Below, in pieces: positions 3 to 63,514 of a stretch of 64,000 bases of DNA. Made by a program: the position numbers and the translations under genes. Each line of letters opens with the position of its first letter. Position 1 is the first letter of the stretch. The DNA is from Hyunsoonleella jejuensis (GTDB taxonomy: Bacteria; Bacteroidota; Bacteroidia; Flavobacteriales; Flavobacteriaceae): positions 1,302,001 through 1,366,000 of the forward strand of contig NZ_FOFN01000001.1 in assembly GCF_900111025.1 (NCBI RefSeq), written 5' to 3'. A model generated the notes under the pieces. It had not been told where the DNA came from, ran no database searches, and saw only the letters and a list, made by a program, of their open reading frames with translations.

Positions 3-794
3 GCGAACTTGATTTTTAATAATTCTGCCGCTTATTCAGGTAGCACCTTATTTCTAGGCGCTTTGTTTTTTGCCTTTCAGATTTATGGTGATTTTTCGGG
101 CTACTCAGATATTGCAATTGGTACTGCGAGACTGTTTGGTTTTAATTTGAAACAGAATTTTGCGTTTCCATATTTCTCAAGAGATATTGCTGAGTTTTGG
201 AGACGTTGGCATATATCTTTATCTACTTGGTTTAGAGATTATCTATATATTCCGCTAGGAGGTAGTAGGGGCAGTACATGGAATAAAATAAGAAATACTT
301 TTGTGATTTTTGTAGTTAGTGGGTTCTGGCATGGTGCCAATTGGACGTTTATTGTATGGGGTCTTTTGAATGCGCTTTACTTCTTGCCATTGCTACTTGG
401 TAAACGCAATAGGAATCATTTAAACGTCGTTGCACAGGATAGTGTGTTGCCAAATATTAAAGAGTGTTTAGGTATGTTACTTACTTTTTTACTTACCGTT
501 TTGGCTTGGATATTTTTTAGAGCAGAAAATATAACTCATGCATTTAATTACATACAGGAAATGCTATTAAAAGATTTTTTTACAATTCCTTTGATAAGAC
601 CTAAAGATATCATCATTCTTGTTTTTGTTTTTATGATAATAGAATGGATTGGTAGAAAACACCAATATGCTATTGAAGTATTGTTTAGGAATAAATCAAG
701 ACTATTAAAATGGAGTTTTTATATGATTTTGATGGCTTTAGTATTACTTTTTAGTAATGAAACACCACAAGAATTCATCTATTTTCAGTTTTAA
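3..794 (+). CDS. MBOAT family O-acyltransferase, C-terminal part
   Basis: This is the C-terminal part of a membrane-bound O-acyltransferase of the AlgI/DltB type, which moves acyl (usually acetyl) groups across the membrane onto extracellular glycans. The reading frame is open to the window edge, so the N-terminus lies upstream. The visible segment has several hydrophobic helices, the DFSGYSDIAIG stretch typical of the family, the RDIAEFWRRWHISLSTWFRDY block, and the FWHGANW motif whose His is the invariant catalytic residue of MBOAT proteins. The stop codon abuts the start of the SGNH-like gene, the usual AlgI/AlgJ-like arrangement. I infer that the pair O-acetylates the polysaccharide made by the locus that follows. 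The family is certain; the acceptor is unknown. Confidence 0.9.
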   Translation, partial: ANLIFNNSAAYSGSTLFLGALFFAFQIYGDFSGYSDIAIGTARLFGFNLKQNFAFPYFSRDIAEFWRRWHISLSTWFRDYLYIPLGGSRGSTWNKIRNTFVIFVVSGFWHGANWTFIVWGLLNALYFLPLLLGKRNRNHLNVVAQDSVLPNIKECLGMLLTFLLTVLAWIFFRAENITHAFNYIQEMLLKDFFTIPLIRPKDIIILVFVFMIIEWIGRKHQYAIEVLFRNKSRLLKWSFYMILMALVLLFSNETPQEFIYFQF

Positions 795-59551: not shown

Positions 59552-61342
59552 ATGGCACTTCAAGACCTTTTAGATAATCAAGTAAAGCAAGCAGTTTCAG
59601 AACTGTATCAAGTAACGTTAGAATCTGTTGAATTTCAAGCAACCAGAAAAGAGTTTGCAGGAGATATAACTATTGTCGTTTTTCCTATGCTACGGGTTAT
59701 TAAGGGTAATCCAGTACAAATTGGTTCAGCTATTGGAGAGCATTTGGTTCAACATGTCAATGAGGTTAAAAATTATAATGTCGTAAAAGGCTTTTTAAAT
59801 ATAGAAATTAACGATTCGTACTACATAGAATTCTTTAATTCAATATGTAACAATGTTAATTATGGTTTTGTGCATAGTACTGAAAACGAAGATGCTATCA
59901 TGGTAGAATACTCATCGCCAAATACTAATAAACCATTACATCTTGGTCATATTAGAAACAATTTGTTGGGATATAGCGTTGCCGAAATTTTAAAAGCATC
60001 AGGTAAAAAAGTTTATAAAACCCAAATAATTAACGATAGGGGTATACATATTTGCAAAAGTATGTTGGCATGGAAACGTTTTGGAAATGGAGAAACCCCA
60101 GAAAGCTCTGGGTTAAAAGGTGACAAACTCGCTGGGAACTATTATGTGAAGTTTGATAAAGAATATAAAAAACAAATACAAGATTTAGTTGCTGGCGGTA
60201 AAAGTGAAGCGGAAGCTAAGCAAGAAGCGCCTATTCTTCTTGAGGCACAAGAAATGTTACGCAAATGGGAAGCTGGAGATGAAGAAACAGTTACACTTTG
60301 GAATAAAATGAACGGATGGGTTTATGAAGGATTTGATGTTACCTATAAGAATTTAGGAGTAGATTTCGATGTGCTTTATTATGAAAGCGATACCTATTTA
60401 TTAGGAAAAGATTTTGTAACGGAAGGCTTAAAGAGTGGCGTATTTTGCAAAGAAGAGGACGGCTCGGTTTGGTGTGATTTGACTAACGAGGGTCTTGATA
60501 AAAAAATAGTGCTGCGTGCTGATGGTACCGCAGTTTATATGACTCAAGATATTGGTACGGCCATTCAGCGTATTAAAGACTATCCAGATGTTGGTGGGAT
60601 GGTTTATACCGTTGGAAATGAGCAAGATTACCATTTCCAGGTACTATTCCTAATTTTAAATAAACTTGGGTTTGATTGGGCTAAAAATCTCTATCATTTA
60701 AGTTATGGTATGGTAGATTTACCTAGTGGGAAAATGAAAAGTAGGGAAGGTACTGTAGTAGATGCAGATGATTTAATTGAAGATATGGCCAAAACTGCTG
60801 AAGAGATTTCAGAAGAATTAGGAAAGCTTGATGGTTATACTAAAGAAGAAAAGCAACAGCTATACAAAACAATTGGTTTAGGTGCATTAAAATATTATAT
60901 ATTAAAAGTAGATCCTAAAAAACGTATTTTATTTGATCCAAAAGAATCCATAGATTTTCAAGGAAATACAGGGCCTTTTATTCAATATACCTATGCTAGA
61001 ATTCAGTCAATTTTAAGAAAATTTAATTCTGAAAAAAATACGAATGACACACCAAGTGTTGTTGATATATCCCTTCATGAAAAAGAAAAGGAATTAATCA
61101 AACAGCTTCAATTATTCCCGGAAGTCATTCAAAATGCTGCGCAACAACATAGTCCTGCATTAATAGCTAATTATACCTATGATTTGGTAAAAGAGTTTAA
61201 TTCATTTTATCAAAATGTTTCCATTCTGGGAGCAGTCAATGAAAACGAAAAAGTGTTTCGTGTACAACTTTCAAAGGCGGTAGCTACTACAATCAAAAAT
61301 GGTTTTGATGTCTTAGGGATTGATGTTCCAGAGCGCATGTAA
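59552..61342 (+). CDS. argS: Arginyl-tRNA synthetase
   Basis: A 596-residue class I synthetase charging tRNA-Arg. The N-terminal Add1 domain (residues 1-115) precedes the HIGH-like motif in VEYSSPNTNKPLHLGHIRNN. GNEQDYHFQVLF and the KMSKS counterpart MKSREGTVVDADDL follow. The C-terminal DALR anticodon-binding domain ends in the expected ArgS style (LSKAVATTIKNGFDVLGIDVPERM). It is a single gene with its own promoter. Confidence 0.96.
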   Translation: MALQDLLDNQVKQAVSELYQVTLESVEFQATRKEFAGDITIVVFPMLRVIKGNPVQIGSAIGEHLVQHVNEVKNYNVVKGFLNIEINDSYYIEFFNSICNNVNYGFVHSTENEDAIMVEYSSPNTNKPLHLGHIRNNLLGYSVAEILKASGKKVYKTQIINDRGIHICKSMLAWKRFGNGETPESSGLKGDKLAGNYYVKFDKEYKKQIQDLVAGGKSEAEAKQEAPILLEAQEMLRKWEAGDEETVTLWNKMNGWVYEGFDVTYKNLGVDFDVLYYESDTYLLGKDFVTEGLKSGVFCKEEDGSVWCDLTNEGLDKKIVLRADGTAVYMTQDIGTAIQRIKDYPDVGGMVYTVGNEQDYHFQVLFLILNKLGFDWAKNLYHLSYGMVDLPSGKMKSREGTVVDADDLIEDMAKTAEEISEELGKLDGYTKEEKQQLYKTIGLGALKYYILKVDPKKRILFDPKESIDFQGNTGPFIQYTYARIQSILRKFNSEKNTNDTPSVVDISLHEKEKELIKQLQLFPEVIQNAAQQHSPALIANYTYDLVKEFNSFYQNVSILGAVNENEKVFRVQLSKAVATTIKNGFDVLGIDVPERM

Positions 61343-61552: not shown

Positions 61553-63514
61553 ATGAAAGAAAGCTTATCCATCCAAAACCCCAAATCTGTTTCGTTATTT
61601 TTATTTATAATTTTCTTCTTCTCTGTAAGCGCATTCGCCAGTACCGACTGCGGTCTCATTGCAGGGTTTGAATTTTCTAACGGGAATGAATCTGTTACTT
61701 TAGAGGATCAACAGACATACGATATTAATAACTTGCCTGAGAATTTTTACGTCAATTTAAATGTTGATGGCTATTCACAAAGCGCACGATTTACTGTTGA
61801 GAATCTTGAAACTGGCAGTAGACATACTATTACTGAAAATCTTTTACCGTATACCTTTCCAGCGGGAAACGGTTCTTGGCATTTAGGATTAGGAACTTTC
61901 AAAATTACTGCAAAACTATATAAATTTGATTTAGGCTGGGGCTTTAAATGTGATTCTAAAAGTGTAACGTTTACAATTAATGAAGGTGGTCAACCCTGTA
62001 CGGCAGATGCGGGCACACTGACTGCCGATGCGGGCACGGTAACCCTAACGGGCGACAGTGCAACCATCAGCGCAACGCCAGATGGCAACGTCGTGGTGCC
62101 AGAGGGCTACAGCAAGCTATTTGTACTGACCTCGGGCGACGATTTAGTGATCGAAGCGGTAGGCGCAGAGCCAAGTTTCCCGGTAACAGCAGCGGGCAAG
62201 TACACGATCCACACCTTGGTATATGACGGAAGGGAGGACAGCCCTAACTTTTTGAACCTTGGCGTAGTGACCTTGGGAGAGACCACGGGAGGCGCAGTAT
62301 TAGGTTTGGTGATTGACAATGGCCTATGTGCCGCACTGGATGTAGCGGGCGCACCGGTAATGGTAGAGACCTGTACGGCAGATGCGGGCACACTGACTGC
62401 CGATGCGGGCACGGTAACCCTAACGGGCGACAGTGCAACCATCAGCGCAACGCCAGATGGCAACGTCGTGGTGCCAGAGGGCTACAGTAAGCTATTTGTA
62501 CTGACCTCGGGCGACGATTTAGTGATCGAAGCGGTAGGCGCAGAGCCAAGTTTTCCGGTAACAGCAGCGGGCAAGTACACGATCCATACCTTGGTATATG
62601 ACGGAAGGGAGGACAGCCCTAACTTTTTGAACCTTGGCGTAGTGACCTTGGGAGAGACCACGGGAGGCGCAGTATTAGGTTTGGTGATTGACAATGGCCT
62701 ATGTGCCGCACTGGATGTAGCGGGCGCACCGGTAATGGTAGAAGTTGAAGAAGAAGTCTGTGAAGCTTCCTCTGGCAAAATGTACTCACCCAAACCTATA
62801 CAATGCTTAAATGGTGGTGAAGCAACAATTTCTGCTCAATTTAATCAACAACCATACATTCCTGAAGGATATCAACAATTGTATGTATTAACCGAGGCAT
62901 ATTCTTTAACAATTCTACAAGTTTCAGAAACACCTGAATTTGAAGTAGATCATAGAGGCTTCTACCGTATTCATAGTTTGGTGTATAACCCAGGTACGCT
63001 AGACTTAAGTATTGTTCAGTTTGGTGTAACAACAGGTTTTGATGTATTAGGTTTAATTGAAGCAAATAACATCTGTGCATCATTAGATGTAAGAGGCGCT
63101 ATTAGTCTAGTGATTGGTTCTAGATGGTTCTGCTATTTCTTTAATAAATACAGAGCTAGAAACGGTAACAATAATGGAAAAGGATTAAATGATGATGATT
63201 TAGCAGGATATATTAATGCCTTTGACAATTATGATGAATTCGAAGCATCTTTTGTAGAGCAAAATGATGAAGTACGATTCTATCCAAACCCAGTAGTTAA
63301 TAATTTAAATGTTGAAATTAGATTATTTGAAAATGAAGACATGAATTATAACATTATGGATGTAAGAGGTAGAATGATTATGAGTGGTTCCGCGGAAGCA
63401 TTAAAATTTGGAAAGTTTACTTTAAATACAAATCAATTTGCAAAAGGAATGTATATCGTGAATTTTGTATCAGAGTTTAGAACAATAACCAAAAAAATAA
63501 TTATTGAGAAGTAA
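61553..63514 (+). CDS. T9SS-secreted surface protein with three repeat domains, two nearly identical
   Basis: A 653-residue secreted protein. A signal peptide (about 1-32, ending SAFAS) precedes an N-terminal domain of about 115 residues. Three copies of a 120-125-residue domain follow (residues 149-273, 274-398 and about 403-520). Each has a Cys start, an IPEGY/VPEGY turn, a Y-x-L-F/Y-V-L-T strand and a final C-A-x-L-D-V-x-G-A. Copies 1 and 2 are identical in protein; copy 3 is diverged. A T9SS type A sorting domain ends it (RFYPNPVVNNLNVE, GMYIVNF). It is probably an adhesin-like or matrix protein; no enzymatic motif is seen. Confidence 0.85.
   Translation: MKESLSIQNPKSVSLFLFIIFFFSVSAFASTDCGLIAGFEFSNGNESVTLEDQQTYDINNLPENFYVNLNVDGYSQSARFTVENLETGSRHTITENLLPYTFPAGNGSWHLGLGTFKITAKLYKFDLGWGFKCDSKSVTFTINEGGQPCTADAGTLTADAGTVTLTGDSATISATPDGNVVVPEGYSKLFVLTSGDDLVIEAVGAEPSFPVTAAGKYTIHTLVYDGREDSPNFLNLGVVTLGETTGGAVLGLVIDNGLCAALDVAGAPVMVETCTADAGTLTADAGTVTLTGDSATISATPDGNVVVPEGYSKLFVLTSGDDLVIEAVGAEPSFPVTAAGKYTIHTLVYDGREDSPNFLNLGVVTLGETTGGAVLGLVIDNGLCAALDVAGAPVMVEVEEEVCEASSGKMYSPKPIQCLNGGEATISAQFNQQPYIPEGYQQLYVLTEAYSLTILQVSETPEFEVDHRGFYRIHSLVYNPGTLDLSIVQFGVTTGFDVLGLIEANNICASLDVRGAISLVIGSRWFCYFFNKYRARNGNNNGKGLNDDDLAGYINAFDNYDEFEASFVEQNDEVRFYPNPVVNNLNVEIRLFENEDMNYNIMDVRGRMIMSGSAEALKFGKFTLNTNQFAKGMYIVNFVSEFRTITKKIIIEK
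61995..62742 (+). repeat. Near-perfect 375-bp tandem duplication inside the surface-protein gene
   Basis: Unit 1 (61995-62367) and unit 2 (62370-62742) have a period of 375 bp. They differ at only three positions (62113/62488, 62179/62554, 62212/62587), each C in unit 1 and T in unit 2, all silent. The unit is G+C-rich (66 of the first 104 bases from 61997), against about 32% in a 60-base sample of the third copy. The duplication is in frame. Confidence 0.95.

Follow-up and report, generated by a model that had tools for sequence, protein, structure and literature searches.

The two near-identical units that form a tandem repeat at positions 61995–62742 of the window are, in our leading explanation, the homogenised core of an old array in which gene conversion between units favours G and C, and we give this reading a probability of about one half. 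The window is the whole stretch of 64,000 nt that was analysed, taken from Hyunsoonleella jejuensis (assembly GCF_900111025.1, contig NZ_FOFN01000001.1, positions 1,302,001–1,366,000). We propose that these units would form the core of a tandem array of a beta-sandwich-like domain in a putative T9SS-exported protein, and that unequal crossing-over together with gene conversion would add, remove and overwrite units, the recombination itself being suggested by the pattern between species. Core units would then stay near-identical within a genome, and the terminal unit would evolve as a normal orthologue, possibly because it is too diverged to pair. Recombination would favour G/C over A/T at mismatches (GC-biased gene conversion, a repair bias that we infer), and core units would climb to a GC3 of 50–75% in an AT-rich genome, in several lineages, and would fall back once outside the core.

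A two-unit repeat in a gene for a predicted T9SS cargo

Tandem Repeats Finder places at 61995–62742 a repeat of period 375 and 2.0 copies, with 99% matches, no indels and a score of 1475; the remaining two of its three rows in the window have periods of 21 and 10. The two-unit repeat of the original prediction is thus confirmed, far beyond chance. It lies in an open reading frame of 653 aa on the plus strand (61553–63514; all features below are on this strand unless stated), whose product is predicted to be a secreted repeat protein from its T9SS tail. The frame begins with a signal-peptide-like N-terminus (61553–61642), a hydrophobic stretch ending SAFAS that was recognised by eye in the translation, followed by an unrepeated N-terminal domain (61643–61996); with 61553–61996 as query, this part is 48–70% identical in L006, L008, L009, L012, L014, L046 and L077. 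Unit 1 (61997–62371, 125 codons) and unit 2 (62372–62743, 124 codons), delimited by repeat, identity and composition data, encode identical protein sequences. Three silent C/T differences had been claimed between them, and all three are present (AGC/AGT, TTC/TTT and CAC/CAT, unit 1 having the C and unit 2 the T at each), as is a fourth silent difference, GAG/GAA, at the last codon, where the match ends. Unit 3 (62759–63112), a terminal unit that identity, tree and composition mark as orthologous across species, had been called strongly diverged, in agreement with its protein identity of 44% to units 1 and 2. The frame closes with a predicted T9SS type A sorting domain at residues 577–651 (63281–63505; PF18962, E 3.6e-13; TIGR04183, E 5.6e-11), and the TIGR04183 match scores 42.3 bits against a cut-off of 23, so the proposed sorting tail of a T9SS surface protein is supported by both families. 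The upstream neighbour, argS (59552–61342; TIGR00456, E 1.4e-130), served as locus marker.

Antisense to the units, the minus strand holds open frames of 118 aa (62107–62463) and 103 aa (62482–62793), which probably reflect the high GC and low T of the sense strand.

The module is ∼125 aa long and, in an alignment of 40 rows, cysteine 111 is invariant and cysteine 1 nearly so. No Pfam or NCBIfam family was found for it, in that no family was matched by more than one of the 40 members scanned at E 0.01; PF13573 (SprB) and PF02494 (HYR) matched neither these members (E up to 0.01) nor the whole protein (E up to 1). Among solved structures the module profile had no credible match, the best having E 0.24. 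A structure model (pLDDT 94.6) consists mainly of strands with one ten-residue helix, and a Foldseek search of the PDB gave nothing at E 0.001 or better, the best match being a PKD domain at E 0.033 and TM 0.36; because these matches are weak, the model suggests no more than a loose Ig/FnIII/PKD-like beta-sandwich. Long frames with tandem modules are likewise a feature of T9SS type A cargo proteins of the SprB or HYR type in Flavobacteriaceae. The likeness of the window protein to the SprB and HYR frames concerns these modules, and the predicted T9SS type A tail is a feature of the window protein; unlike the SprB and HYR modules, however, the module of the window lacks a Pfam or NCBIfam family and a credible match among solved structures. 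At the cell surface, the protein probably acts as a spanning or binding element, a putative role in which the number of units would set its length.

Concerted evolution of the array

Of 395 genomes of the family, 34 contain the module at E 1e-10; 22 of these entered our locus set (12 were left out), and a peptide-pattern scan found it in 42 loci of other genomes, which belong to Bacteroidota judging by record titles. Of the 11 other genomes of the genus, 8 carry it, with as many as 11 units per array, and it was not found in G004, G006 and G011. The gene argS adjoins the repeat gene in L006, L009, L014, L046 and L077 and lies ∼3.6 kb upstream of it in L008 and L012; these are the 7 loci with argS upstream among the 62 searched, all from this genus, and in L090, from another genus, argS is on the same stretch but not upstream. 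The number of units had been expected to vary among related strains, and it differs between species of the genus, from two (L077, at a contig end) to eleven (L006). Because contigs of relatives end within the array in L007, L046, L076, L077, L083, L087, L089, L091 and L092, unit numbers in such drafts are lower bounds; some further frames are open at the end of the locus, which marks the limit of the fetched stretch and not a contig end. A search for additional units elsewhere in the H. jejuensis genome, which the original prediction had proposed as a check, found only the three described here.

In the tree, core units group by genome, and terminal units form a clade of their own across species. 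We picked 12 arrays to compare core identity within a genome with the best match outside it, and in 10 of them the former was higher; in the other two, L006 and L008, two types of unit are pooled, and one type of L006 is shared with L009 at 0.948. Units 1 and 2 of the window are 0.989 identical to each other, compared with 0.747 for the best outside match. Terminal units of the window, L006, L007 and L008 are 0.73–0.78 identical between species, compared with 0.45–0.54 to the other units of their own array. Units thus resemble each other more inside one genome than across species, and the unit that does not exchange follows orthology, the two marks of concerted evolution. Hence it is well supported that units 1 and 2 are part of an old array under concerted evolution, most simply through recombination between units. 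In prokaryotic duplicated genes, concerted evolution likewise leaves copies within a genome more alike than orthologues, according to PMC6053082; the system described there is one of duplicated genes such as tuf, whereas here the units are domains inside one gene, and no mention of GC content or of the word biased was found in that paper.

The duplication had been described as very recent. Near-identity of the two units stands, but recent origin as claimed is not supported, since related species have arrays of this unit in their orthologues of the gene, and the units are closer to each other than to their best match outside; near-identity therefore dates the last homogenisation and not the origin of the array. 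All three differing sites carry C in the cores of L006, L008 and L014, but L076 and L077, the closest relatives by protein (82%), have T at two of them, the first and the third, so that the relatives point both ways as to which of the two units changed.

GC3 and homogenisation

The GC3 of units 1 and 2 is 60 and 56%, respectively, against 19% in unit 3 and about 25–26% in other genes of the window, and their overall GC is 56–57% against 33% in the surroundings. This GC-rich composition was absent from the original prediction. Within single loci of other genomes, units 2–5 of L006 have a GC3 of 51–55% compared with 16–23% in its other seven, units 1–4 of L008 have 54–58% compared with 22–32% in the others, and values of 71–75% and 24–29% occur in the same gene in L014. 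In L086, a single-contig genome, nine units have 58–65% and the last unit 18%.

Silent GC excess rose with the best identity of a unit within its array (Spearman rho 0.49; 238 units, 44 locus groups), and GC3 excess, after correction for amino acid and local codon usage, was −0.03 to −0.04 at identities <0.8 and +0.127 at ≥0.95. These counts follow removal of units that covered <95 profile columns, contained N or had a broken frame, and of single-unit groups, which have no identity value; near-duplicate organisms (e.g. L032, L033 and L035) are counted separately, and a single MAG is the source of both L024 and L029. The core lay above the other units in all 15 of the 44 groups that hold both classes and so entered the paired test (Wilcoxon 6e-5); L014, with an identity of 0.898 and thus under the 0.9 cut, is outside this test and outside the high-GC set used for codon comparison. 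Permutation within arrays gave p 2e-4 for the relation between GC and identity, and rho was 0.44 without this genus (190 units). Phylogenetic contrasts (n = 180) gave r 0.33 for GC3 (p 7e-6) and were positive for C4 (p 0.022), G4 (p 0.0011) and NNR-G (p 0.0003). At two-fold sites, raw means in the most homogenised class rose by 0.13 for C and by 0.146 for G.

Four-fold sites of the cores of the window, L006, L007 and L008 differ between species at 0.47–0.54 (6 pairs), compared with 0.67–0.70 expected if they were independent, and L014 differs from those four cores at 0.55–0.70 (expected 0.73–0.77). Because the cores have undergone much four-fold change and GC is still high, high GC has been kept through silent change. 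Moreover, 20 high-GC core units (from L086, L006, L008, the window and L007) have a GC3 of 0.577, compared with 0.211 in 29 frames of the ribosomal region, and the codon shares of the two sets are 0.40 and 0.02 for CTG and 0.44 and 0.07 for GGC. Codon optimisation for high expression is hence unlikely, as the genomes' own ribosomal regions avoid the codons most used in the cores.

Loss of T at silent sites

The strongest raw signal is a loss of T at four-fold sites (rho −0.65); in the most homogenised class the change is −0.24 for T and +0.14 for A. After phylogenetic correction, T was still down and A was flat, and the contrast for NNY-C was not significant (p 0.11). Next-base context was ruled out as the cause of T loss, as allowing for it moved the value only from −0.242 to −0.248. 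When homogenised units were compared with their nearest non-homogenised relative, T loss alone was significant (p 0.007, 21 clusters). The T/A asymmetry is not part of the GC-biased gene conversion hypothesis as it is understood, that bias being strand-symmetric. The strand-symmetric loss of A and T expected under GC-biased gene conversion is absent at four-fold sites, and a purely strand-symmetric GC bias is thus insufficient as a full account, given that T is lost there without loss of A. Some homogenised arrays show little GC excess (L085 +0.03, L090 0.00, L080 −0.04 and L094 +0.01), and units 8 and 9 of L008 (L008:8233–8961), which are 98% identical, are AT-rich with a GC3 of 26% and have no T loss.

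These observations bear on an explanation in which ordinary concerted evolution is combined with selection at silent sites against U-rich mRNA, spurious promoters or unfavoured codons, multiplied by copy number, so that T-poor and partly GC-rich units would arise without any repair bias. We regard it as a possibility to be taken seriously, although a doubtful one. It draws on the prominence of T loss among the raw signals, on the recurrence of this loss in repeats of other types (26 of 33 arrays and all 8 clusters) and on its strand asymmetry, the remainder of the same genes showing little T change (−0.012, 39 genes). However, the codons favoured in the cores differ from those of the ribosomal region, and neither the A-to-G gains at NNR codons nor the four-fold gains of G that persist after correction are explained by avoidance of T. 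For the T/A asymmetry taken by itself, copy-number-multiplied selection against U-rich sequence and a transcription-oriented repair bias may both be candidates.

Direction of silent changes

Silent changes were polarised by parsimony in four GC-rich cores of our choice, ranges below giving the results of two outgroup sets; 5–18 sites per comparison were ambiguous, and near-saturated sites can mislead such counts. The core branch of L014 carries 25 W>S and 4 S>W changes, that of L086 23 and 2, the core of the window 10–24 and 2–3, and that of L006 9–16 and 1. Outside the GC-rich core of L006, L006_7 has 10–19 S>W and 0 W>S changes, and L006_8 has 12–21 S>W and 1–2 W>S. Two further cores do not fit this direction: the branch of the L012 core, which is homogenised as well, carries 10 S>W changes and no W>S, and the L078 core has 6 S>W and 5 W>S. 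Singletons in three high-GC cores, which are unpolarised, comprise 22 S>W and 13 W>S changes, with a rate ratio of 1.22 (p 0.59); in ten lower-GC cores the per-site S>W rate is 2.37 times that of W>S.

The correlation of GC with identity alone gives no direction, and composition might be the cause of homogenisation and not its effect, GC-rich or T-poor units recombining more readily. We consider this unlikely, as GC-rich cores gain GC along their own branches and L006_7 and L006_8 lose it. GC-biased gene conversion, for its part, accounts for the main direction of change, for the gains at two-fold sites, for a composition that does not follow codon preference and for the fall in GC of units outside the core; it leaves the T/A asymmetry and the L012 core unexplained.

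Origin of the GC-rich units

Units with 56–57% GC amid surroundings of 33% would also fit the recent duplication of a GC-rich unit that had been acquired horizontally from a GC-rich bacterium. The closest full-length relatives of the protein that we found are, however, from the same genus (82%, with 79% for the best among the 42 loci), the units nest among same-genus relatives from which their four-fold sites are far diverged, and GC-rich and AT-rich units of one clade coexist in the same gene. No GC-rich donor carrying the same units at >90% DNA identity was found in the peptide-pattern scan, which reaches close relatives only. Horizontal acquisition thus appears improbable. An assembly artefact, with one real unit duplicated or many collapsed into two, is very improbable: in relatives, the contigs that carry the array frequently break off within it and unit number is probably underestimated in drafts, but units 1 and 2 carry three distinguishing differences, and relatives assembled as single contigs hold 8 and 10 units (G180, corresponding to L085, and G249, corresponding to L086, respectively).

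Relation to known systems

GC-biased gene conversion in bacteria is debated, mainly through genome-wide correlations that selection can mimic. In the present array, units that recombine and units that have diverged are parts of the same mRNA and the same protein, and expression and gene-level selection are therefore held constant, which makes the array a natural test case for this debated bias in DNA recombination. According to Lassalle et al. 2015 (PMC4450053), GC3 in bacteria increases with intragenic recombination; this increase is independent of the AU-ending optimal codons and may even run against them. Our observations are similar in that GC rises with recombination, here seen as homogenisation, independently of codon preference. 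The comparison of Lassalle et al. was between whole genes, whereas ours is between units of one frame, with the diverged units as internal control; no mention of tandem, paralog or duplicat was found in their paper. In mammals, near-identical repeats of X-chromosome palindromes that are kept alike by conversion show a GC bias, according to the portion of PMC8981503 available to us; those are palindromes in a eukaryote, and the array of the window consists of direct repeats in a bacterium. Judged by titles and the starts of abstracts, none of the papers listed in our literature search dealt with how homogenised repeat units of bacterial surface genes are composed in their bases.

If GC-biased conversion between units is correct, GC-rich islands in AT-rich genomes would not necessarily originate from horizontal acquisition.

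Other repeat families

For comparison with other families, we picked 60 stretches among the SprB and HYR matches listed, choosing those with long frames or many matches; filtering left 33 repeat frames, of which 18 fall in a single homology cluster. In 26 of the 33 frames the repeats had less T than the non-repeated remainder (p 5e-5), and in 22 they had more G+C (p 0.006), a weaker rise in GC than in the module of the window. Taken over the 8 homology clusters, T was lower in all 8 (p 0.008), and the difference in GC was not significant (p 0.11). The scatter of GC3 was about three times as large in repeats as in non-repeat parts (sd 0.149 compared with 0.051), some arrays being AT-rich. A steady rise of GC across all repeat families was not found, GC3 of the repeats varying widely. 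Silent-site drift is common among the homogenised repeats of this sample, and GC rises in many of them but not in all.

We tentatively extend these observations to homogenising repeats in secreted proteins of Flavobacteriaceae at large, which might be pushed away from the base composition of their genome by a recombination-linked bias with strand-asymmetric loss of silent T from the coding strand. This would be a second, transcription-oriented bias atop GC-biased conversion, and it would become visible because diverged units of the same gene act as built-in controls; we think this broader proposal is more speculative than established. Separately, L099 and L113 contain very long low-complexity repeats with a GC3 of 5–9%, far under that of other frames of the same stretch.
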